Below, piece after piece: positions 1 through 8,208 of a stretch of 8,208 nucleotides of DNA. The position numbers and the translations under genes are program-made. The first letter of the stretch is position 1; every line of letters begins with the position of its first letter. Below the pieces are notes generated by a model. It ran no database searches. It was not told the DNA's origin and worked only from the letters and a program-made list of their open reading frames with translations. Source of the DNA: Pseudomonadota bacterium (lineage in GTDB: Bacteria; Myxococcota; UBA9042; PHBI01); NCBI GenBank assembly GCA_005788935.1, contig SYAK01000001.1, forward strand, positions 1 to 8,208, read 5' to 3'.

Positions 1-605
1 ATCGCAACGCCGACGTCGATGGCCGTCGCCCAGCTGTGTGGGCTCTGGCGCTTCGTACCCCGCACGTTCCGCCACACGAAGACCCCCGCGGTCTTCGCCG
101 CGATGGCCCGCAAGTCCGGCGACAGCGTCCGCTCGAGCTCGGCGCTGACCTTCGCGAGTGCCTCCGCGACCCCGTTGACGGTCGTCACGCGCACCTCGCG
201 ACCGCCTGACGCAAGCATCCACGGCACCTTGCGCGTCTTCGCGGCGACCTCGGCGCGCGTCCGCCCGTACATCGCCCCCATCAGCCCGGCGTGCCGCCAT
301 CGACCGGGCTCGAAGTCGGGCGGGGGCACTGTGAAGTGCCGCCCAGGCCGATACGGCATCGACACCGTATCTTCAGCATCGGGGTCGTCGAGCTTCTCGC
401 GGTACGCCTTGTCGCGCCGACCGTCGTCCCACGCCACGCGCGTCCCGTCGCACAGCGTCAGCCCCTGGGCATCACCCGCACAGACGACCCCGGGATACGC
501 CTTGACGAAGCACCCCCAGCGCTCGCCAGCCATCGTGCCGATCGGCTCCGCAGCGCGCGCGTCACCCGACAGCGCCGCGATCAGTATCAGGCCGACCCGC
601 CTCAG
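1..605 (-). CDS. M15-family D-Ala-D-Ala carboxypeptidase-like secreted protein, 3' end cut off by the window
   Basis: I translated this from the reverse strand; 201 complete codons are visible and the frame is open to the window edge. Near the visible C-terminus lies S-P-H190-S-W-A-T-A-I-D197. This fits the M15 zinc-ligand signature SxHxxGxAxD, with the usual Gly replaced by Ala. Before it come W-R and G-T-K-R, as in the M15_4 (VanY-like) group, and a D-F-E-P-G-R-W-R segment with the family's M-Y-G-R-T and V-P-W pieces. Members cleave D-Ala-D-Ala or related peptides of the cell wall outside the cytoplasm. Residues 1-18 look like a signal peptide: R-R, a hydrophobic L-I-L-I-A-A-L core, then A-R-A. 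Three Cys (32, 42, 52) follow. To keep the signal peptide the start must be CTG at 605-603, which overlaps the upstream TGA; the first in-frame ATG (533-531) would remove it. The last zinc ligand and the catalytic acid lie outside the window, so activity cannot be judged. Confidence 0.82.
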   Translation of the reverse strand, partial: MRRVGLILIAALSGDARAAEPIGTMAGERWGCFVKAYPGVVCAGDAQGLTLCDGTRVAWDDGRRDKAYREKLDDPDAEDTVSMPYRPGRHFTVPPPDFEPGRWRHAGLMGAMYGRTRAEVAAKTRKVPWMLASGGREVRVTTVNGVAEALAKVSAELERTLSPDLRAIAAKTAGVFVWRNVRGTKRQSPHSWATAIDVGVA

Positions 606-2656
606 GGCGCCGGCTCCGGGACCGGGCGCGTGAAGGTCGGCACCGCGCCCGTCAGCGCCGCGCGATGGAAGTTCGCGACCGCGACCCCAACCTCGACCCG
701 GTTCAACAGCTCGAAGTGGTCGCCACCCGTGAACAGCCACGAGAGGATCGTCAGCGCCCCGCCGCGGGCCCCTTCGACATTCCCGGCGAAAGGCCCATCG
801 CTCGTCGTGATGCCACCAAGCCCGAATGGGTCGAAATTCCAGAGTGTCTCACCTGTAACCACGGACCCGGAAGCCGTCGTGATGGCATCGACCGAGCGCA
901 CCGGCGTCGTCGCGTCGGCGCTCGCGTTCACGACGAACACGTGCGAACCGGGGTGTCCACCTGCGACCCCGCGCCAGTGGCGGGCGTAGGAGGCCGGGTC
1001 CACGACATCCCCAGACACCTGCGCGAGCTGCACGATGGGGTGAAACCGCGTGATGAGCGCCACCGGCTCGCCGAAGGCCAGGGCCACCAGCTCCTGGATG
1101 TCGAAGTAGTCCTTGCGCTCGACCAGCGTCGTCGACATGTGCCCGCCGAGTCCGCCAAACGCGTAGGCCGCGAACGCCTCCGAGACCCCCGCCAGCAGGG
1201 ACCCCGCAAGCGCCCCCTGCGAGTGCCCGCCATACGCGAGGCGCGTCGTGTCGATCGCCGGCACCCCCTCGAGCCCGCCGAGCGCCGCCCGCACCCACCG
1301 CGCGAGGTACGCGGTCTCGATGGCCTGCTGGCGCAGCACCGACCGCCCGGCCGACGGGTTCAGGTAGTTGAAGGTCGACATGACGGTCTCGACACCGGCC
1401 GCCTGCCGCGGCCCGTGGAACTGCGGCAGCATCGAGACGACCACGAAGCCGTCCGCGAGCGCAGCCTTCACCGGTTCGTCCGACAGGTGTCCGAACTGCC
1501 GGATCCCCGTGCCGCCAACCCACACCAGCACCGGGCGCGCGGCCTCCTGCGACCCCGGCCGCCACGCGACGGTCACCGGGGCCGCCTCGAACCGCTGCAC
1601 CTCGGGCCCGTCGCCCTTATGGACAAGCCCGCCTGAGCCCGGAACGTCGTACGGCGAGTCACCCGCCTGGTAGATCGGCATCGCCAGACTGCCCGCCCGC
1701 ACCTCGCGGTTCGCGTTGCTCTGCCCGTCGACGCGCGCCCACCCCGACAGGGTCCCCAGGGGCACCGCGTCGGACAGCACGTGGTCCACGAACGCCCCAA
1801 GCTCGCGCGTCGAGTCGGCCGTCGTGAAGAGTGTCGCCGCCACCACGTCATCCGCCTCTGCACCAAGGCACGCCCGCAGGGCCGCGAAGGGTCCCTCGGC
1901 GTCCACCCATGCCGCCTCGAAGGCCGGGTCGCGCGCGAGTGCCGGCGTCGTGGCCGCGGCGTCGATGATGGCGGCGTAGCGGGTCAACGGAGCGAGCTCG
2001 TGCCCGTGGACCGGGGTCGCCATCAAGGCTGGCACGGGCATGAACGGGCTGTCGGCGTCGAAGATCTCGACCTCGACCGGGACCTGGGTCGCACAGGTCG
2101 CGTCATCCGGGAAGGCGATGAGCCGAATCGGGGAACCCGTCCCGCGCGTCTCCGCGGGCGTCGGTCGCGCGATGGCCTCCGGGCTCGCAGACAGGGGGAA
2201 ATAGACGACCGGCATCCGCGGATAACCGTCGACCTCGGTCTCGATGAGCTCGCGATAGGCGATCGCGAAGTCGTTGCCAATCGTGTCGAAGCCGGGCAGC
2301 TGGAGACGGCCATCCGAGGCGCGCATCCGGTCGTCAGGCCACGGGGTCAGCGCCCACGCGGGGCTCTCGGCGGTGTAAAGCGCGTGAAGCGGGGCCGGAG
2401 CCACCGTCACATCGGCCTCTTGCGCGTCGTCCTCCTGTGCGGTGTCGCGCTCCTGCGCAACGTCGGCGACGGCCACATCCTCCTCGGGAGTCCCGGCGTC
2501 CGCGTCCGTGACGCCATCGACCCGGACCTCCTCGGGGAGGCCGCTGTCGTGCGTCACCGCGTCGAGCGGGGCGGTCGATGGCGTGGCCGTGTCAGCGCAC
2601 GCAGCGATGGACAGGGCGGCGAACAGGGGGGCGGCGGTAGGCAGAGTGCAGCGCAT
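602..2656 (-). CDS. Large alpha/beta-hydrolase (lipase/esterase-like) lipoprotein
   Basis: This 684-residue protein starts with a lipoprotein signal peptide: hydrophobic residues 8-19, then I-A-A-C with Cys20 as the lipidation site. Residues 21-88 form an acidic, low-complexity linker rich in Asp, Glu, Ala, Val and Thr, probably a tether to the outer or inner membrane. Residues about 92-330 hold an N-terminal region (W-P-D-D-R then G-R-L-Q-L-P) reminiscent of the N-terminal domain of large bacterial lipoprotein lipases such as Vibrio VolA; this similarity is by eye. The catalytic domain spans about 365-670. It has a W-V-G-G-T-G oxyanion-type loop near 379-384 and the nucleophile elbow G-H-S479-Q-G. 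Candidate acid and base are D581 (A-D-A-T-T-P) and H647 (G-G-D-H-F). Cys188 and Cys263 might form a disulfide. The substrate is unknown; lipid ester, polyester or peptide are possible. A minus-strand GGAG precedes the ATG. The stop overlaps the M15 gene, suggesting a shared cell-envelope operon. Confidence 0.85.
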   Translation of the reverse strand: MRCTLPTAAPLFAALSIAACADTATPSTAPLDAVTHDSGLPEEVRVDGVTDADAGTPEEDVAVADVAQERDTAQEDDAQEADVTVAPAPLHALYTAESPAWALTPWPDDRMRASDGRLQLPGFDTIGNDFAIAYRELIETEVDGYPRMPVVYFPLSASPEAIARPTPAETRGTGSPIRLIAFPDDATCATQVPVEVEIFDADSPFMPVPALMATPVHGHELAPLTRYAAIIDAAATTPALARDPAFEAAWVDAEGPFAALRACLGAEADDVVAATLFTTADSTRELGAFVDHVLSDAVPLGTLSGWARVDGQSNANREVRAGSLAMPIYQAGDSPYDVPGSGGLVHKGDGPEVQRFEAAPVTVAWRPGSQEAARPVLVWVGGTGIRQFGHLSDEPVKAALADGFVVVSMLPQFHGPRQAAGVETVMSTFNYLNPSAGRSVLRQQAIETAYLARWVRAALGGLEGVPAIDTTRLAYGGHSQGALAGSLLAGVSEAFAAYAFGGLGGHMSTTLVERKDYFDIQELVALAFGEPVALITRFHPIVQLAQVSGDVVDPASYARHWRGVAGGHPGSHVFVVNASADATTPVRSVDAITTASGSVVTGETLWNFDPFGLGGITTSDGPFAGNVEGARGGALTILSWLFTGGDHFELLNRVEVGVAVANFHRAALTGAVPTFTRPVPEPAP
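614..617 (-). promoter_or_regulatory. Ribosome binding site for the CTG-started M15 gene
   Basis: GGAG on the minus strand lies 8 nt before the CTG at 605-603, inside the last codons of the upstream hydrolase gene. It is the main support for a CTG start, together with the signal peptide that begins there. The arrangement implies translational coupling to the hydrolase gene. Confidence 0.5.
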
Positions 2657-2662
2657 CGGGGG

Positions 2663-2666
2663 CTCC
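2663..2666 (-). promoter_or_regulatory. Ribosome binding site of the hydrolase lipoprotein gene
   Basis: Minus-strand GGAG ends 6 nt before the ATG at 2656-2654. It supports this start, which also places the lipoprotein signal peptide at the extreme N-terminus. Confidence 0.6.
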
Positions 2667-2805
2667 GTCGGGTGACGCGTTCATCCTCCACCCCTTGCCC
2701 GCCATGACGCAAGCCCGCGCGGCACCCGAACCGTTCGAAATCCGCCCCTCCCGGCAACCGAGGCCCGCCGAAAGGACCCTATCGCAGTTTCGCGCGAGGG
2801 GTGCT

Positions 2806-2811
2806 AAGAGG
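2806..2811 (+). promoter_or_regulatory. Ribosome binding site fixing the start of the fusion gene
   Basis: AAGAGG lies 7 nt before ATG 2819. The alternative in-frame GTG at 2801 has a purine run directly abutting it with no spacer, so the ATG at 2819 is preferred. That start also begins the protein directly with the G-D-F-I-D segment usual at the N-terminus of this aldehyde dehydrogenase group. Confidence 0.6.
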
Positions 2812-2818
2812 CTCGCCC

Positions 2819-4228
2819 ATGGACTTCGCACGCGGCGACTTCATCGACAATCAGTGGGTCAAGCCGGCAAGCACGGCCTTCATCCGCAGCATCAACCCAG
2901 CCACCGACGGCGAGATCGTCCTCGAGGCCCCGACCGACCCGGCGCACGCCCAGCTCGCCGTCGACGCGGCCGCACGCGCCTGGCCGGCCTGGGCCGCGCT
3001 GACGTCCGACGAGCGCATCAGCGCGCTGCGCAAGTTCGCGCGCGAGCTGTCGTCGCGCATCGAGGCCCTCGCCCGCGCCATCACGACCGAGATGGGCAAG
3101 ACCATCCGCGAGGCGCGCGTCGAGGCGAACTCCCTGCTCGCGCGCATCGATCTCGTGGCCGAACAGCAGCTGCCGCTCGTCCGCCCGTGGACGCCGCCAG
3201 GTGTGGCGGGCGAGTGCCGCTACCACCCGCTCGGCGTCATCGCGGTGCTCGGGCCGTTCAACTTCCCGCTGCACCTCTGCCACGCCCACATCGTCCCGGC
3301 GCTCGCGACCGGCAACACGGTCGTCGTCAAGCCGTCCGAGCGCACGCCGCTGGCGTTCCAGCGCTACATGGAGGCGTGGGACGCGGCCGGCCTGCCACCC
3401 ATCCTGCAGATGGTCCAGGGCGGCGTCGACATGGGCAAGGCGCTGCTTCAGACGCGTGGCCTCGCCGGCGTCGCCTTCACAGGCTCTTGGCGCGGCGGCA
3501 ACGCCATCCAGCGCGCGCTCCTCGACCGCCCCGAGGTCCTGCCCGCACTCGAGATGGGCGGCCAGAACATGGCCATCGTGCTCGAGGACGCCGACGTCGA
3601 GCAGGCCCTCGAGGGCGTGCTGCTCGGCGGCTTCCTGACGACTGGCCAGCGCTGCACCTGCACCTCGCGCGTCCTCGTCCAGCGCAGCATCGCCGAGGCC
3701 TTCACGGCACGCCTCATCGCGTCGGCGCGCGAGCTGACGTGGGGCGACCCGATGAGCGACGTCTTCATGGGGCCGCTCGCCTCGACTGGCGACCGCGACA
3801 AGGTGGAGTCCCTCTGCCAGGCCGGGCGCGAGGCGGGCGCAGAGGTCCTGCTCGCGGCCGAGCTGCGAGACGGAGGCGCCTGGCGCGGCCCGTCCATCCA
3901 CCGCATCGCGCGCGACCACGACTCCGACTACACCCGCGAAGAGGTCTTCGGCCCCGACCTCGCCATCACCGTCGTCGACGATCTCGACGACGCGCTCGAG
4001 ATCGTCCGCGCGAGCCCCTACGGACTCTCGATCTCGCTGTTCTCCGCCCGCCGCGCCGCCTTCGAGGCCGTCTATCTCAAGACGCGCGTCGGCTGCGTCA
4101 ACTGGAACAGGTCCACCAACCGCGCCTCGGGCGCCATGCCGTTCGGCGGCGTCGGGCGCTCTGGCAACTTCCGCGCGGCCGGCTCGGACGCGGTCCGCTA
4201 CACGACCTACCCGGTCCAGGTGCAGTGG
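2819..4228 (+). other. Domain 1 of the fusion: AstD-like NAD(P)-dependent aldehyde dehydrogenase (residues 1-470)
   Basis: The full aldehyde dehydrogenase signature is present: N148 in G-P-F-N-F-P, cofactor Lys171 in V-K-P-S-E, general base E245 in L-E-M-G-G, nucleophile C279 in G-Q-R-C-T-C, E375 in E-V-F-G-P, and P-F-G-G-V-G near 441-446. E245 and C279 are 34 residues apart, as in the classical enzyme. From my knowledge of E. coli AstD (N-succinylglutamate semialdehyde dehydrogenase), this domain shares its distinctive pieces: H-x-x-H-I-V-P-A-L, V-Q-G-G, F-T-G-S, E-M-G-G-x-N, A/T-G-Q-R-C-T-C and V-N-W-N. It is therefore closer to AstD than to generic GabD-type enzymes. Likely substrates are semialdehydes of 4-5 carbon amino acids or their N-acyl forms; succinate semialdehyde is possible. 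Confidence 0.9.
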
Positions 4229-7200
4229 AACGACCCCGGCATCCTCGAGAACGACGCGCACGTCAACCGCGCCCTGCAGGCTGGCGACCCGCTCTCGGGC
4301 CTCGAGAACCGCCACCGCATCGAGGAGGCCCTCGAGCCGTGGGGGCTCTACCCCGAGTTCCTCGCCCAGCCCGCGGCCTTCCGAATCGCCACGGTCCAGC
4401 TCGAGTCGGGCGGGACCTCCGTCGGGCGCCCGCTCGCAGACACCCTGCGCGCCCACGGCGTCGCGTCCGACCTCACCCCCGAGGGGCTCCGCGTGGCCCT
4501 CCCGTCGAGCGAGTCCGACGTTCGACACATCGCGAGGGCCCTCGGCGCTGCGCTCTTCGACATCCGCCACCTCCATCTCGCCCGTTTCCTCGGCCGCCGT
4601 CCCGCAGGGGCCCACGTCCCGCCGGGGACCTCGTTGACGCTGCCCCGCTCGACTGACTTCATGAAGCGCCTCGTCTCGGGCGACTTCGTCCCCGATGACA
4701 AGAAGCCGCCCGTCATCGACCTCTTCCGCTCGAGCGGCCCATACCTCGCCAGCGTCGACGACGACCCGATCGTCTTCTTCGACGCGGCGAGCCAGATCGC
4801 CACGCACGCGGCCGGACTGAACCCTCCCGCCCTCCTCGAGGCGCTTCACACGGGTCGCTTCGGGACATCCGCCCTCGAGGACGGCTCGCCCGAGGACCAG
4901 GCCGCGCTGACGCGCCTCGCGACCCTCATCCGCGGTCACGCTCCGGCGCTTCCACACCTGCGCATGTCGAACTCCGGCGCCGAGGCGAACGAGGTCGCCC
5001 TCGCGACAGCCTCCGTCCATCGCCCCGGACGCAAGGGCGTCATCGCCTTCCGCGGCGCCTTCCACGGCCGGACGATGCTCGCCATCCACTCGACCTGGAA
5101 CCCGGCCAAACGGATTCGGTTTGAACTGCAAGGATTCCAGGCGCGCTGGGTCGATCTGCCGGTGCAGGACAACCCGGCGGCCGTGGCCCCCGAACCCGAC
5201 GGCTGGCTCGCACACTGGGGCGCCCTACCCGCCTCCCGCGGGGCGGACGCATTCCTCACGTCCGACCCGCTGCTGACGGCCGAGCTCGCCGCGCTCAACG
5301 ACGTCGAGGCGCAGCTCGCGGACGACCAGGTCGCGGCCATCATCGCAGAGCCGATGCAGGCCGAGGGCGGCGAGCGGTACGCCTCTCCCCGTTTCTTCCG
5401 GGCCCTTCGCACCATCGCGACGCGCGCGGGCATCCCGTTCATCATGGACGAGGTCCAGTGCGGCTTTCAGCTCGGCGGACCGTTCTTCTGGCATGATCTC
5501 CTCGACCTGCCGACGCCACCCGACCTGCTGACGTGCGCCAAGAAGGCTCAGGTCGGCGTCACGCTCTCGCGCTGGCCCATCCCCGTGGCGACCGAGACGG
5601 CGGCCGCCTCGGCCATTCGTGGCACACTCTATGGCGAGCTCCTCGCGGCCAACCCGCCTGGCGAGGTGATGCGTGAGGCTGGCTCGGAGCTCTGCCGCCT
5701 CGCTGGCGACTACCCCGCCCTCGTGCTCAACCCGCGCATGGCCGGCTGGTCCTTCGGCTTCGACCTCCCGACCGTCCCCGAGCTGAACCACCTCGTGAAC
5801 GAGCGCCTCTGGCGCGGGTACATGATCTACGGCGCGGGCGATCGCGGCCTGCGCTTCCGCTTCCACCCCGAGGTTACCCTCACGCACGTGAAGGCGCTCT
5901 TCGTCCGTCTGCGCGCGTCCCTCGACGGCCTCGTCGCGGGCAAGGCGCCCGCAACCGCGACCTCGTGGCAGCCCGACGGTACGGACGGCCTCCCCGACCG
6001 CGCGGCGGCGTGGCCTCCCGCGCAGGCCGGCAAGCTGGCCCCGGGCTACCACCTGCTGCGGGTCACGGCCGCTGACTGGCCTGCGGTCCGCAATCAGTAC
6101 AAGGCGTTGCAGGACGGCACCTACGAACCTGCGCGGCGCGACGACTTCGAGCATTTCACGGCGCTGATGGAGGACCCCGACGCGATTTGCCACGTCGTGG
6201 TTCACGGGCACGCCACCCTCCCTCCGCGCGGGACGTTGGTCGGCGCCGTCGTGGCCTTCCCCCTCGAGCACTTCGAGGACCTCGACGGCCCGCGACAGGA
6301 CCCGACGCTCGGCCATGCCGAGACCCTCTACTCGGCCGATCTCACGGTCCACGCCGACCATCGCGGCGTCGGTCTCGGGCGAGCCTTGAAAGAGGCGCAG
6401 CTCGCGTCGGCGATGACACAGACCCGTTCGGATGGCAGCCCGCGCTACATCTTCGTCTCCGGGCGGAACCGCGTCGGGGCGACAGACAGCATGGCTGCGC
6501 TCAACGCGGATTACGGCGCGTGGCGCGTGGCCCGCTACACCGGTCAATACGACGAGGCCGAGGGGGTGTGCGACTACTACCGCATCAACCTGCTCGGGCC
6601 GCGGATCGGCGGCCGCGCGGCCGTGGCGCTCAAGCCGAAGGCCCCGCAGGTGCTCGACTTCGAGGGCGGCCTCACGCGCCGCCTCGGTGACATCCGCACC
6701 GAGCGTGCCGGAACCTCCGACCTCCGCGCCGCGTGGTCCGACGGTCTGCTCAATGGCAGCGCGCTCAACAAGCTGTCGCTATGCAACTTCGTGACCCCCG
6801 GCCTCGTCCGCGCGCACGAATACCTTCGCCAGCTGGCGCCGAAGTCGATGCCGCACGCCATCTTCGCCTCCGGGCGGGCCGAGGCCCTCGACAAGACGCT
6901 GCGCTCCATCAAGTACCACCGTGGCGCCGCCAGCGTCGTGCTGAGCCTCGGGCCGGTCTTCGCCGGTCTCTCGACCGCCGCGGCCCGCAGCGTCACGCTG
7001 CCCGACACGCACCCGCTGAACTGGTTCGGCTGGCCGACGTTGCCCGACCCGAGCCTCGAGGCCGACAAGGCGCTCGCGGCGTTGCGCAAGGCGCTGACCG
7101 AGCGGCCGGCCGAGTCGATCCTCGCGGTCGTCACCGAGCCAGTCTTCACCGCCACCGCGCGTGCCATCCCGGAGACCTTCTGGGAGCCGCTGCGGGCGCT

Positions 7201-7705
7201 GCTCGACGAACACGGCGTTCCGCTGCTGCTCATCGAGAACGCGACCGCGGGTTACCGGTCGGGCCGCGGCTTCTGGCGGGCCGACACCCTCCCCGTGGCG
7301 ACGGATGCCATCGTGTGGTTCCCGGGTGGCCAAAACGGCCTCGGTTACGTGTCGGACAAGTACTATGTCAGCGAGAAGCTGACGCTCATCTCGACATGGG
7401 ACGGCGACGAGCTCGGTCTGACGCGCCTCGTGCTCGAGCTGCGCGCGGCGCGCCGTCTCCCGGTCGACGAGCTGGCGCGGCAGCTGAAGAAGGCCCTCTC
7501 GGCCCACGGCACGGTCCGCGGTGAAGGGCTCTTCCTCGGGCTCGAGGTGCCGAACGCCGAGTCGGTCGCGCGTCGCCTCGCGGAGCGCCGGGTCCGCGTG
7601 GGCCTGACCGACGACAAGGCGCTGCGGATCGCCCCGCCGCTGAACGTGACCCGGGAAGAGGTCGCCGCCCTCGTGCAGCTCCTGAAGGAGGCTGTCGCGC
7701 CATGA
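2819..7705 (+). CDS. Four-module fusion: aldehyde dehydrogenase, class III aminotransferase, GNAT acyltransferase, pseudo-aminotransferase
   Basis: One unbroken frame of 1628 residues encodes enzymes that normally come as separate proteins. Order: AstD-like aldehyde dehydrogenase (about 1-470), a 144-residue connecting segment (471-614), a class III PLP aminotransferase (about 615-1045), a GNAT acyltransferase (about 1075-1262) and a second class III aminotransferase-like domain (about 1270-1628). No signal peptide or membrane segment is seen, so it should be cytoplasmic. Catalytic residues are intact in the dehydrogenase and first aminotransferase; the last domain has lost the Schiff-base lysine. 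The modules together suggest acylation of a diamino acid, transamination, and oxidation of a semialdehyde, that is, catabolism of lysine, beta-lysine, ornithine or arginine. The gene overlaps a 3-oxoacid CoA-transferase gene by ATGA, which favours the acetylated beta-lysine route. Base composition and codon use match the neighbours, and an assembly artefact is unlikely because each junction is in frame with linker-like sequence. The exact substrate is not determined. Confidence 0.9.
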   Translation: MDFARGDFIDNQWVKPASTAFIRSINPATDGEIVLEAPTDPAHAQLAVDAAARAWPAWAALTSDERISALRKFARELSSRIEALARAITTEMGKTIREARVEANSLLARIDLVAEQQLPLVRPWTPPGVAGECRYHPLGVIAVLGPFNFPLHLCHAHIVPALATGNTVVVKPSERTPLAFQRYMEAWDAAGLPPILQMVQGGVDMGKALLQTRGLAGVAFTGSWRGGNAIQRALLDRPEVLPALEMGGQNMAIVLEDADVEQALEGVLLGGFLTTGQRCTCTSRVLVQRSIAEAFTARLIASARELTWGDPMSDVFMGPLASTGDRDKVESLCQAGREAGAEVLLAAELRDGGAWRGPSIHRIARDHDSDYTREEVFGPDLAITVVDDLDDALEIVRASPYGLSISLFSARRAAFEAVYLKTRVGCVNWNRSTNRASGAMPFGGVGRSGNFRAAGSDAVRYTTYPVQVQWNDPGILENDAHVNRALQAGDPLSGLENRHRIEEALEPWGLYPEFLAQPAAFRIATVQLESGGTSVGRPLADTLRAHGVASDLTPEGLRVALPSSESDVRHIARALGAALFDIRHLHLARFLGRRPAGAHVPPGTSLTLPRSTDFMKRLVSGDFVPDDKKPPVIDLFRSSGPYLASVDDDPIVFFDAASQIATHAAGLNPPALLEALHTGRFGTSALEDGSPEDQAALTRLATLIRGHAPALPHLRMSNSGAEANEVALATASVHRPGRKGVIAFRGAFHGRTMLAIHSTWNPAKRIRFELQGFQARWVDLPVQDNPAAVAPEPDGWLAHWGALPASRGADAFLTSDPLLTAELAALNDVEAQLADDQVAAIIAEPMQAEGGERYASPRFFRALRTIATRAGIPFIMDEVQCGFQLGGPFFWHDLLDLPTPPDLLTCAKKAQVGVTLSRWPIPVATETAAASAIRGTLYGELLAANPPGEVMREAGSELCRLAGDYPALVLNPRMAGWSFGFDLPTVPELNHLVNERLWRGYMIYGAGDRGLRFRFHPEVTLTHVKALFVRLRASLDGLVAGKAPATATSWQPDGTDGLPDRAAAWPPAQAGKLAPGYHLLRVTAADWPAVRNQYKALQDGTYEPARRDDFEHFTALMEDPDAICHVVVHGHATLPPRGTLVGAVVAFPLEHFEDLDGPRQDPTLGHAETLYSADLTVHADHRGVGLGRALKEAQLASAMTQTRSDGSPRYIFVSGRNRVGATDSMAALNADYGAWRVARYTGQYDEAEGVCDYYRINLLGPRIGGRAAVALKPKAPQVLDFEGGLTRRLGDIRTERAGTSDLRAAWSDGLLNGSALNKLSLCNFVTPGLVRAHEYLRQLAPKSMPHAIFASGRAEALDKTLRSIKYHRGAASVVLSLGPVFAGLSTAAARSVTLPDTHPLNWFGWPTLPDPSLEADKALAALRKALTERPAESILAVVTEPVFTATARAIPETFWEPLRALLDEHGVPLLLIENATAGYRSGRGFWRADTLPVATDAIVWFPGGQNGLGYVSDKYYVSEKLTLISTWDGDELGLTRLVLELRAARRLPVDELARQLKKALSAHGTVRGEGLFLGLEVPNAESVARRLAERRVRVGLTDDKALRIAPPLNVTREEVAALVQLLKEAVAP
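4229..4660 (+). other. Connecting segment of the fusion with a cryptic PLP-small-domain-like stretch (residues 471-614)
   Basis: This 144-residue segment between dehydrogenase and aminotransferase is too long and too ordered to be a simple linker. Residues 471-520 are mostly helical-looking, with few low-complexity runs. Residues 521-582 read as strand, helix, strand, helix (R-I-A-T-V-Q-L, then a helix, then G-L-R-V-A-L-P, then D-V-R-H-I-A-R-A-L). That is the layout of the C-terminal small subdomain of fold-type-I PLP enzymes, and it resembles the end of the fourth module (A-L-R-I-A-P-P). Residues 583-614 look like flexible linker. Assignment is by eye only. Confidence 0.4.
4661..5953 (+). 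other. Domain 2 of the fusion: class III PLP aminotransferase, lysine 6-aminotransferase-like (residues 615-1045)
   Basis: Fold-type-I, class III landmarks are in order: N718-S-G-A-E-A-N for phosphate binding, F748-H749-G for ring stacking, E844-P with a following E-G-G, D877-E-V-Q for the pyridine nitrogen, and the Schiff-base lysine, K908 in A-K-K-A-Q-V. R1012 or R1014 in L-R-F-R-F-H-P is the usual carboxylate-binding region. The K-K-x-Q-V pattern around the lysine and the D-E-V-Q-x-G-F run resemble lysine 6-aminotransferase rather than AstC/ArgD or GabT. The domain should be active. It could act on the terminal amine of lysine, on an N-acylated beta-lysine, or on 4-aminobutyrate. Confidence 0.85.
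6041..6604 (+). other. Domain 3 of the fusion: GNAT N-acyltransferase (residues 1075-1262)
   Basis: Motif A of the GNAT fold is clear: a strand S-A-D-L-T-V followed by H-R1182-G-V-G-L-G-R-A-L, the acyl-CoA pyrophosphate loop (consensus R/QxxGxG/A). The C-terminal half has a G-R-N strand and A-D-Y-G-A-W, typical of GNAT motif B, and the domain closes with Y-Y-R-I-N-L. It lacks the recognisable sequence of AstA, the arginine succinyltransferase. It may acylate an amino acid amine, for example as the beta-lysine acetyltransferase AblB does. Placed between two aminotransferase-like domains, it is more likely to act on the same small metabolite than on a protein, but the acceptor is not shown by the sequence. 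Confidence 0.8.
6626..7702 (+). other. Domain 4 of the fusion: degenerate class III aminotransferase lacking the Schiff-base lysine (residues 1270-1628)
   Basis: It aligns by eye with domain 2 across its length: S1351-G-R-A-E-A against S-G-A-E-A-N; an E-P motif; I-E1473-N-A-T-A-G-Y against M-D877-E-V-Q-C-G-F; R1603 in A-L-R-I-A-P-P against the carboxylate Arg; and G-E-G-L-F-L-G-L-E, typical of the class III C-terminal domain. The pyridine-binding Asp is Glu1473. Where domain 2 has its lysine, 31 residues on, this domain has F-P-G-G-Q-N-G (1501-1507), with no Lys anywhere between. The phosphate-binding N-S-G is altered to A-S-G, and the F-H-G equivalent is V-F-A-G. It is probably catalytically dead for transamination. 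Its role may be structural (class III enzymes are dimers with active sites at the interface) or ligand sensing. Confidence 0.75.
7685..7690 (+). promoter_or_regulatory. Ribosome binding site of the CoA-transferase subunit gene
   Basis: AAGGAG sits within the last codons of the fusion gene, 11 nt before the ATG at 7702. With the ATGA overlap it supports translational coupling of the two genes. Confidence 0.6.
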
Positions 7706-8208
7706 GTCGCAAGGTCTTCACCGACGCCGCGAGCGCCATCATCGACCTGAGCGACGGGGCCTCTGTCATGGTCGGCGGGTTCGGCCTGTGCGGCAACCCC
7801 GAGCACCTCATCGAGGCGCTCGCCGCCTCGGGCCGCCGCGAGCTGACCATCATCTCGAACAACTGCGGCAACCAGGGCCAAGGGCTCGCCGTCCTGCTGA
7901 AGCAGCGCCAGGTCCGTGCCTGGAAGGGCTCGTTCATGGGCGGCAACCCCGATATCCAGGACCAGGCTGCGCGCGGCCTCGTCGAGGTCGAGCTGATCCC
8001 GCAGGGGACGCTCGCCGAGCGGATCCGGGCGGGAGGTGCCGGCATCCCCGCGTTCTTCACGCCCACCGGAGCTGGCACGGTGGTGGCCGACGGCAAGGAG
8101 ACCCGCGTCTTCGCCGGCCCCGACGGAAAGCCTCGCCCGTGCGTGCTCGAGGCCGCCATCACGGCGGACTACGCCTTCATTCGCGCCCACCGCGGCGACG
8201 CCTCGGGC
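7702..8208 (+). CDS. scoA: 3-oxoacid (succinyl-CoA:3-ketoacid) CoA-transferase subunit A, 3' end cut off by the window
   Basis: 169 codons are visible of a family that is usually about 220-240 residues. The N-terminal glycine loop G-G-F-G-L-C-G-N-P-E and the following S-N-N-C-G are those of ScoA/AtoD alpha subunits. Further conserved pieces are V-E-L-I-P-Q-G-T-L-A-E-R-I-R-A-G-G-A-G, F-T-P-T-G-x-G-T-V-V and R-A-H-R-G-D-A-S. L-C-G-N-P-E and the A-E-R-I-R run are closer to ScoA (succinyl-CoA:acetoacetate transferase) than to the butyrate-acetoacetate type. The enzyme moves CoA from succinyl-CoA to a 3-oxo acid in the cytoplasm; subunit B, which carries the catalytic Glu, should lie just beyond the right edge. 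The start codon overlaps the stop of the fusion gene (ATGA), so the two are surely one operon. This points to a 3-oxo acid intermediate made by the fusion protein. The gene symbol reflects family, not proven substrate. Confidence 0.93.
   Translation, partial: MSRKVFTDAASAIIDLSDGASVMVGGFGLCGNPEHLIEALAASGRRELTIISNNCGNQGQGLAVLLKQRQVRAWKGSFMGGNPDIQDQAARGLVEVELIPQGTLAERIRAGGAGIPAFFTPTGAGTVVADGKETRVFAGPDGKPRPCVLEAAITADYAFIRAHRGDASG

Follow-up and report, generated by a model that had tools for sequence, protein, structure and literature searches.

The 8,208-nucleotide stretch analysed here (the window) comprises positions 1 to 8,208 of the forward strand of contig SYAK01000001.1, from a bacterium placed by GTDB in the Myxococcota (assembly GCA_005788935.1). 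It encodes one chain in which an aldehyde dehydrogenase (ALDH), a class III aminotransferase (AT1), a GNAT acyltransferase and a pseudo-aminotransferase (AT2) follow one another. We judge the chances about even that this fusion serves as the principal multi-enzyme in a catabolic operon, one that applies the logic of the arginine succinyltransferase (AST) pathway to a diamino acid, with AT1 and AT2 paired as an intramolecular dimer. More tentatively, the operon may represent an undescribed aerobic route for beta,omega-diamino acids (beta-lysine, for example) that spans the Myxococcota and Bdellovibrionota and relies on a single-chain pseudo-heterodimer with one pyridoxal phosphate (PLP) site and the acyltransferase between its halves. 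Two predictions come out of the analysis: an amine-catabolic operon that is widespread and apparently still without a name, and an unusual enzyme layout in which one half of an intramolecular dimer keeps the cofactor and the other keeps the partner loop.

A first-pass annotation, made from the DNA letters alone, had read four enzyme-family modules in a single frame, and had named stops at the module junctions of relatives, an assembly join or a lost stop codon as ways in which that reading might fail. The frame proved to be real: it runs uninterrupted from an ATG at 2819 to the TGA at 7703-7705 (1628 aa), its domains match their families, and homologues of the same length exist. When residues 470-1628 were used in a homologue search, 270 proteins were found, the best 120 of which were listed; P0002-P0004, from other contigs, share 70-74% identity over this region and are 1629-1634 aa long. 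No stop at a module junction was seen among the relatives whose sequences were read. The same architecture, with AT1-GNAT-AT2 (the core) as its conserved part, also occurs in genomes G360 and G184, where the contigs measure 10.75 and 10.33 Mb and the open frames span 1601 and 1577 aa. Because the architecture recurs in many homologues, including these two on contigs above 10 Mb, an assembly join is ruled out for the architecture, and an origin of the fusion in such a join or in a lost stop codon, for which nothing was found in favour, has practically no chance of being correct. The start codon could alternatively be a GTG at 2801, which would lengthen the protein by 6 residues; the ATG is preferred because of the likely ribosome-binding site between the two (Table 1). 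A scan of positions 2500-2900 for sigma-70 promoters and terminators gave no match, and neither did an Rfam scan of the window.

The proposed dimer rests on complementary losses in the two aminotransferase-like domains. AT1 (residues about 595-1045, PF00202) has Asp877, Gln880 and the PLP lysine Lys908; among the 137 rows of the core alignment, Asp877 is present in all and Lys908 in 136. Both its sequence and its fold resemble lysine aminotransferase (LAT), in line with the first-pass mention of AST or lysine routes. Counterparts of LAT R170, E243, D271, Q274, K300 and R422, aligned by count, are kept in 135-137 of the 137 rows, and the score with the LAT equivalog model TIGR03251 (122.4 bits) lies below the cut-off of 520.8. 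AT2 (residues about 1262-1628) is homologous to AT1 by hhalign profile-profile comparison (E 1.8e-25). Matches of the C-terminal 370 residues to class III aminotransferases are weak (best NCBIfam score 42.9 bits); for the best PDB match of the AT2 region (E 1.6e-8), the query extended over most of the GNAT domain as well. At the columns of the PLP lysine (1502) and the aspartate (1472), other residues stand in all 131 and 130 rows shown, respectively, of the 137. The fourth module is therefore a class III homologue of AT1 that lacks the PLP lysine, which bears out its earlier description as a pseudo-aminotransferase. AT2 keeps an S-T-W loop resembling the one at LAT T330, which is not a conserved feature of AT1. 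A structure model of AT1-GNAT-AT2 had a pLDDT of 95.2 and a pTM of 0.94. On the simplest reading, AT1 and AT2 would be the paired halves of a class III dimer built into one polypeptide, with just one of the two sites at work; AT1 would hold the sole PLP lysine and AT2 would supply the phosphate loop.

The ALDH module (residues about 1-470; PF00171, 370 bits) has an intact catalytic set, Asn148, Glu245 and Cys279 each being present in 83/83 alignment rows that have the domain. It scored 367 and 357 bits with two models of AstD, compared with 275 for the next family and 171-222 for succinate semialdehyde models, and its best solved chains were 3ju8 and 4kna. These scores agree with the first-pass mention of AST or lysine routes, and the equivalog cut-off of AstD was missed (TIGR03240, 356.7 versus 579.3 bits). 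At another locus (L130:3733-5790), a 685-aa protein joins the same ALDH and GNAT types directly, without aminotransferases, which supports consecutive use of the two modules; it adjoins a glycine-betaine-type ABC transporter gene. The GNAT module itself (residues about 1068-1267) scored 19.2 bits with PF00583 in the whole chain, under the cut-off of 20.7, and 23.7 bits, above it, when scanned alone. The glycines of its R/Q-x-x-G-x-G motif are kept in 129/137 and 136/137 rows. Scanned alone against NCBIfam, the domain had no match at E 0.1, and fold and profile searches for its substrate returned generic GNAT matches; among the weak profile matches were thialysine acetyltransferase at E 0.006 and, at E 0.11, diamine acetyltransferase 2.

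Table 1. Features of the fusion gene and its immediate surroundings (window positions)
Feature	Position	Strand	Evidence
Likely ribosome-binding site, AAGAGG, 7 nt upstream of ATG 2819	2806..2811	+	Sequence read, inferred
Single chain ALDH-AT1-GNAT-AT2, 1628 aa	2819..7705	+	Open frame, full-length homologues
ALDH module with intact Asn148, Glu245 and Cys279; nearest family AstD (N-succinylglutamate semialdehyde dehydrogenase)	2819..4228	+	PF00171, TIGR03240, residue counts
AT1, LAT-like class III aminotransferase with all catalytic residues; Lys908 (5540-5542) is the PLP lysine	4601..5953	+	
GNAT acyltransferase module with R-x-x-G-x-G motif	6020..6619	+	
AT2, pseudo-aminotransferase without the PLP Lys and the Asp	6602..7702	+	hhalign AT1-AT2, probability 99.7%; columns 1472, 1502-1504
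AT2 loop S-T-W-D-G-D-E, resembling LAT S-T330-W-G-G-N	7391..7411	+	Thr in 134/137 rows; equivalence by eye
3-oxoacid CoA-transferase subunit A; start overlaps fusion stop (ATGA); cut by window end	7702..8208	+	TIGR02429, 169.7 versus cut-off 128.5 bits

The core was found in both Myxococcota and Bdellovibrionota. When 377 Myxococcota genomes were sampled, at least 82 gave a match at E 1e-20; in at least 50 of these, by hand count, the core was matched below 1e-50, and these 50 are taken as carriers. The counts are lower bounds, as no more than 2 candidates were scored in each genome. The ALDH may be fused, adjacent or missing. It is fused in 83 and not fused in 52 of 135 aligned core proteins (120 from the database and 17 from loci, minus 2 that were too short; some may repeat). 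Of the 57 loci judged in both groups, 26 have it fused to the core and 6 have it next to the core on the upstream side; 17 show none within 1.5 kb, and in 8 the contig ends too early for a decision. On a tree of the 135 cores, a quick build with long branches flagged, the fusion state changes 8 times, at least 6 of them by starred branches. These changes point to repeated gain or loss of the ALDH, with AT1-GNAT-AT2 remaining a unit throughout. The first-pass account is corrected in one respect: four modules do share one chain in the window, but the conserved unit is AT1-GNAT-AT2 with the ALDH as its variable part. The four-module architecture is also not a one-off.

Beyond the core itself, nine of the other 32 matched loci (L124-L132) comprise six with one or two LAT-like or 4-aminobutyrate (GABA)-aminotransferase-like genes and no core, and three with GNAT proteins that have no recognisable pair of aminotransferase domains. 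Two aminotransferase matches were also seen in L124, L125, L127 and L128. The GNAT proteins of L131:2012-5506 and L132:3457-6450 did not match AT1 or AT2 at the thresholds applied, yet lie beside a CoA-transferase gene, in L131 also beside a second aminotransferase of the type described below (AT3). Partial relatives occur on two planctomycete contigs, both reaching the contig end (L015, AT1-GNAT and part of AT2; L018, AT1 only), and a plasmid collection held two partial Azospirillum matches with 23% coverage.

Four partner genes recur behind the core: a C45-family protein, a second class III aminotransferase (AT3) and the A and B subunits of a 3-oxoacid CoA-transferase. Counts were restricted to loci with 5 kb of flanking sequence, and L148, L150 and L136 were removed as duplicates. 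At least one partner lay on the same strand within 6 kb downstream in 29/37 loci (AT3 in 23, CoA-transferase A in 20, C45 in 18 and CoA-transferase B in 13), and none of the four was found upstream (0/33 loci). A variant count with an added GNAT threshold gave 28/36 loci with any partner. Gene calling in high-GC loci relied on a codon score and got some neighbours wrong. The order in Bdellovibrionota (L007, L008, L010, L013 and L017) is D-Ala-D-Ala ligase, AT1-GNAT-AT2, C45, AT3, CoA-transferase A and CoA-transferase B; in Myxococcota the same C45-AT3-CoA-transferase row, complete or partial, stands behind the core. CoA-transferase A directly follows the fusion in the window, L005, L159 and L160, of which the window and L160 end too soon for C45 or AT3 to be judged. 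These neighbours support the catabolic role first suggested for the chain. The D-Ala-D-Ala ligase gene directly upstream of the operon (L007:8819-9928, and likewise in the other four loci) was considered as part of the pathway and rejected. The 5/5 Bdellovibrionota genomes that have it beside the operon gave no other ligase match at E 1e-20, so that a housekeeping role is probable; in a sixth genome, G383, four such matches occur.

Each partner family was then compared with characterised proteins. The C45 protein of L007 passes NF040521 (160.5 versus 85 bits), and its best solved match is acyl-CoA:isopenicillin N acyltransferase (2x1d), an enzyme of amide and thioester chemistry. The closest solved structure to AT3 of L003 is taurine aminotransferase (212 bits; next 179), which acts on a beta-amino substrate and thus suits a beta-amino acid; a 3-oxoacid CoA-transferase in turn suits the product of AT3 acting on a beta-amino acid. 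CoA-transferase A of these loci (26 rows, including L131 and L132) splits from the separate copies in close genomes with an SH-aLRT of 90, on a branch that is not starred; the 26-row group also excludes the plasmid copies, including one from within the pca cluster of a Streptomyces. The subunit B tree is less clear, as the Bdellovibrionota copies stand far off. Subunit B is encoded twice in each of four close genomes; the copies of G220 are a lone gene and a gene that belongs to a separate A-B pair. A Sinorhizobium meliloti plasmid (L196:3242-8866) carries genes for an aminotransferase, an ALDH, CoA-transferase A and B and a thiolase, a set of similar logic whose ALDH is 30% identical to that of the window.

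An AstD-like ALDH, a terminal-amine aminotransferase, an acyltransferase and a separate amidase repeat AST logic. In the order that we propose, GNAT would acylate one amine of a diamino acid, AT1 would transaminate the terminal amine, and ALDH would oxidise the resulting N-acyl semialdehyde to the acid. The separate C45 amidase would then take off the acyl group, AT3 would remove the other amine, and the CoA-transferase would activate the resulting 3-oxo acid. On the best reading of the sequences, a beta,omega-diamino acid would satisfy all parts of the operon. That the substrate is beta-lysine (3,6-diaminohexanoate), giving 3-oxoadipyl-CoA, is a speculative refinement that we hold to be possible though doubtful. 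To our knowledge, no genes have been assigned to the long-described enzymes of beta-lysine breakdown, and if beta-lysine is the substrate, the operon would provide candidates for them.

Several results weigh against this proposal. Lysine 2,3-aminomutase (kamA) was rejected as the source of the substrate: matches at E 1e-95 or better, with membership read by hand, were not enriched in carriers (32/50, versus 244/377 genomes of the phylum; Fisher p 1.0). The looser KamA family (E 0.001) was matched in 17/17 carriers. Among 28 carriers compared, the nearest KamA match was 26 kb from the core (G002) and most were on other contigs; in fragmented genomes, kamA may still lie near the core. Eight of the 37 loci had no partner within 6 kb (L009, L019, L137, L168, L172, L175, L177 and L178), and since L003, L007 and L012 supplied the partner seeds, L003 and L007, both among the loci counted, match by construction. 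Neither C45 nor AT3 was found in the 6.7-7.0 kb seen downstream in L005 and L159, C45 relatives occur elsewhere in 3/4 close genomes (26-29% identity), and L008, L010 and L017 have no ALDH within 1.5 kb upstream. Typing of the CoA-transferase as PcaIJ or ScoAB (3-oxoadipate or acetoacetate) by PDB matches, plasmid neighbours and trees gave no decision.

The same enzymes could be arranged differently. In a route of the type that Barker reportedly described for beta-lysine in a Pseudomonas, GNAT would acetylate N6, AT1 would remove the beta-amine, and the 3-oxo acid would be activated and cleaved; C45 would serve as deacetylase-thioesterase on 4-acetamidobutyryl-CoA, AT3 as GABA aminotransferase and ALDH as succinate semialdehyde dehydrogenase. 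Every component would be used, and the isopenicillin N acyltransferase match of C45 is in keeping with its role here. BKACE likewise passes its cut-off in 12/17 carrier genomes and 1/14 controls; it was not seen beside the core and was rejected as a pathway member. The far better ALDH scores with AstD than with succinate semialdehyde models argue against this arrangement, as do the lack of enrichment of kamA and the absence of an NCBIfam match for GNAT alone. Moreover, the ALDH-GNAT fusion of L130 would link its first and last steps, and kamA, thiolase and BKACE were not recognised by eye among the 22 recurrent neighbour clusters shown. We consider this route unlikely.

An acyl-protected route from alpha-lysine, through N2-acyl-lysine to 2-aminoadipate and 2-oxoadipate, would agree with the AstD-like ALDH and with the likeness of AT1 to LAT, which acts on alpha-lysine. 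The CoA-transferase would enter in a later or side step, and its recurrence, together with that of the taurine-aminotransferase-like AT3, would be left unexplained; this route, too, appears improbable. Polyamine breakdown, in which GNAT would acetylate putrescine or cadaverine, AT1 and ALDH would yield the acetamido acid, C45 would free the amino acid and AT3 would deaminate it, accounts for everything except the CoA-transferase. Some Myxococcota have an unfused aminotransferase-GNAT-aminotransferase-deacetylase gene row (L126 and L129) that recalls such a scheme, as does the weak match to diamine acetyltransferase 2, but the GNAT of that row aligns with the core GNAT over just 41 columns, at 22% probability. 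In addition, AT1 keeps the FHGR arginine in 136/137 rows, a residue that binds the substrate carboxylate in class III aminotransferases, and we regard a polyamine substrate as quite improbable. A diamino acid handled with AST-like logic is the reading that we retain.

Upstream of the fusion, the minus strand of the window holds a divergent 684-aa gene (602-2656) with a lipoprotein-like start, a G-H-S-Q-G serine-hydrolase-like motif seen by eye and no Pfam match at E 1. An open-ended frame follows on the same strand (3-740); towards its C-terminus there is a faint resemblance, under the cut-off at E 0.068, to an M15 D-Ala-D-Ala carboxypeptidase. In L005, the closest relative of the window in the genome collection, the gene divergent from the fusion differs, encoding a methylmalonyl-CoA mutase (L005:6558-8267; PF01642, 744 bits).

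No description of the fusion was found in the open full-text literature, a scope that lies outside subscription journals. The AST pathway acylates, transaminates, oxidises and deacylates its substrate in that order, and this logic, with the AstD-like ALDH, is what the window shares with it. Its genes are named AstA, AstC, AstD and AstE (PMC4476821). The window system differs in its fused chain, in an AT1 that is nearer to LAT than to AstC and in a GNAT without an NCBIfam match. Operons of this type add an extra aminotransferase and a CoA-transferase, and have a C45 amidase as the recurrent deacylase-type neighbour (an AstE-type desuccinylase was not searched for). As the AstD and LAT models score far below their cut-offs, we regard the operon as AST-like and not as an AST member. 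The link to the C45 family of isopenicillin N acyltransferase lies in the NF040521 and 2x1d matches of the L007 partner; here, the C45 protein is encoded beside the core and not within it, and in the closest relatives of the window it does not adjoin the fusion.

The unfused rows (L126:2611-7413 and L129:2717-7374) have the same order as the core, followed by a deacylase-family gene. Unlike AT2, both of their aminotransferases keep the lysine motif (by eye), and those of L129 score best, below its cut-off, with a eukaryote-type GABA aminotransferase model. Their deacetylase belongs to PF00850, the histone-deacetylase family, and not to C45, and their GNAT is not recognisably that of the core. 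We therefore see these rows as a parallel acetyl-protected amine route, not as a proven ancestor of the core. The final comparison is with LAT (Rv3290c, 2cin): AT1 resembles it at 122 bits against a cut-off of 521, and the dimer partner of AT1 would be a degenerate half of its own chain.

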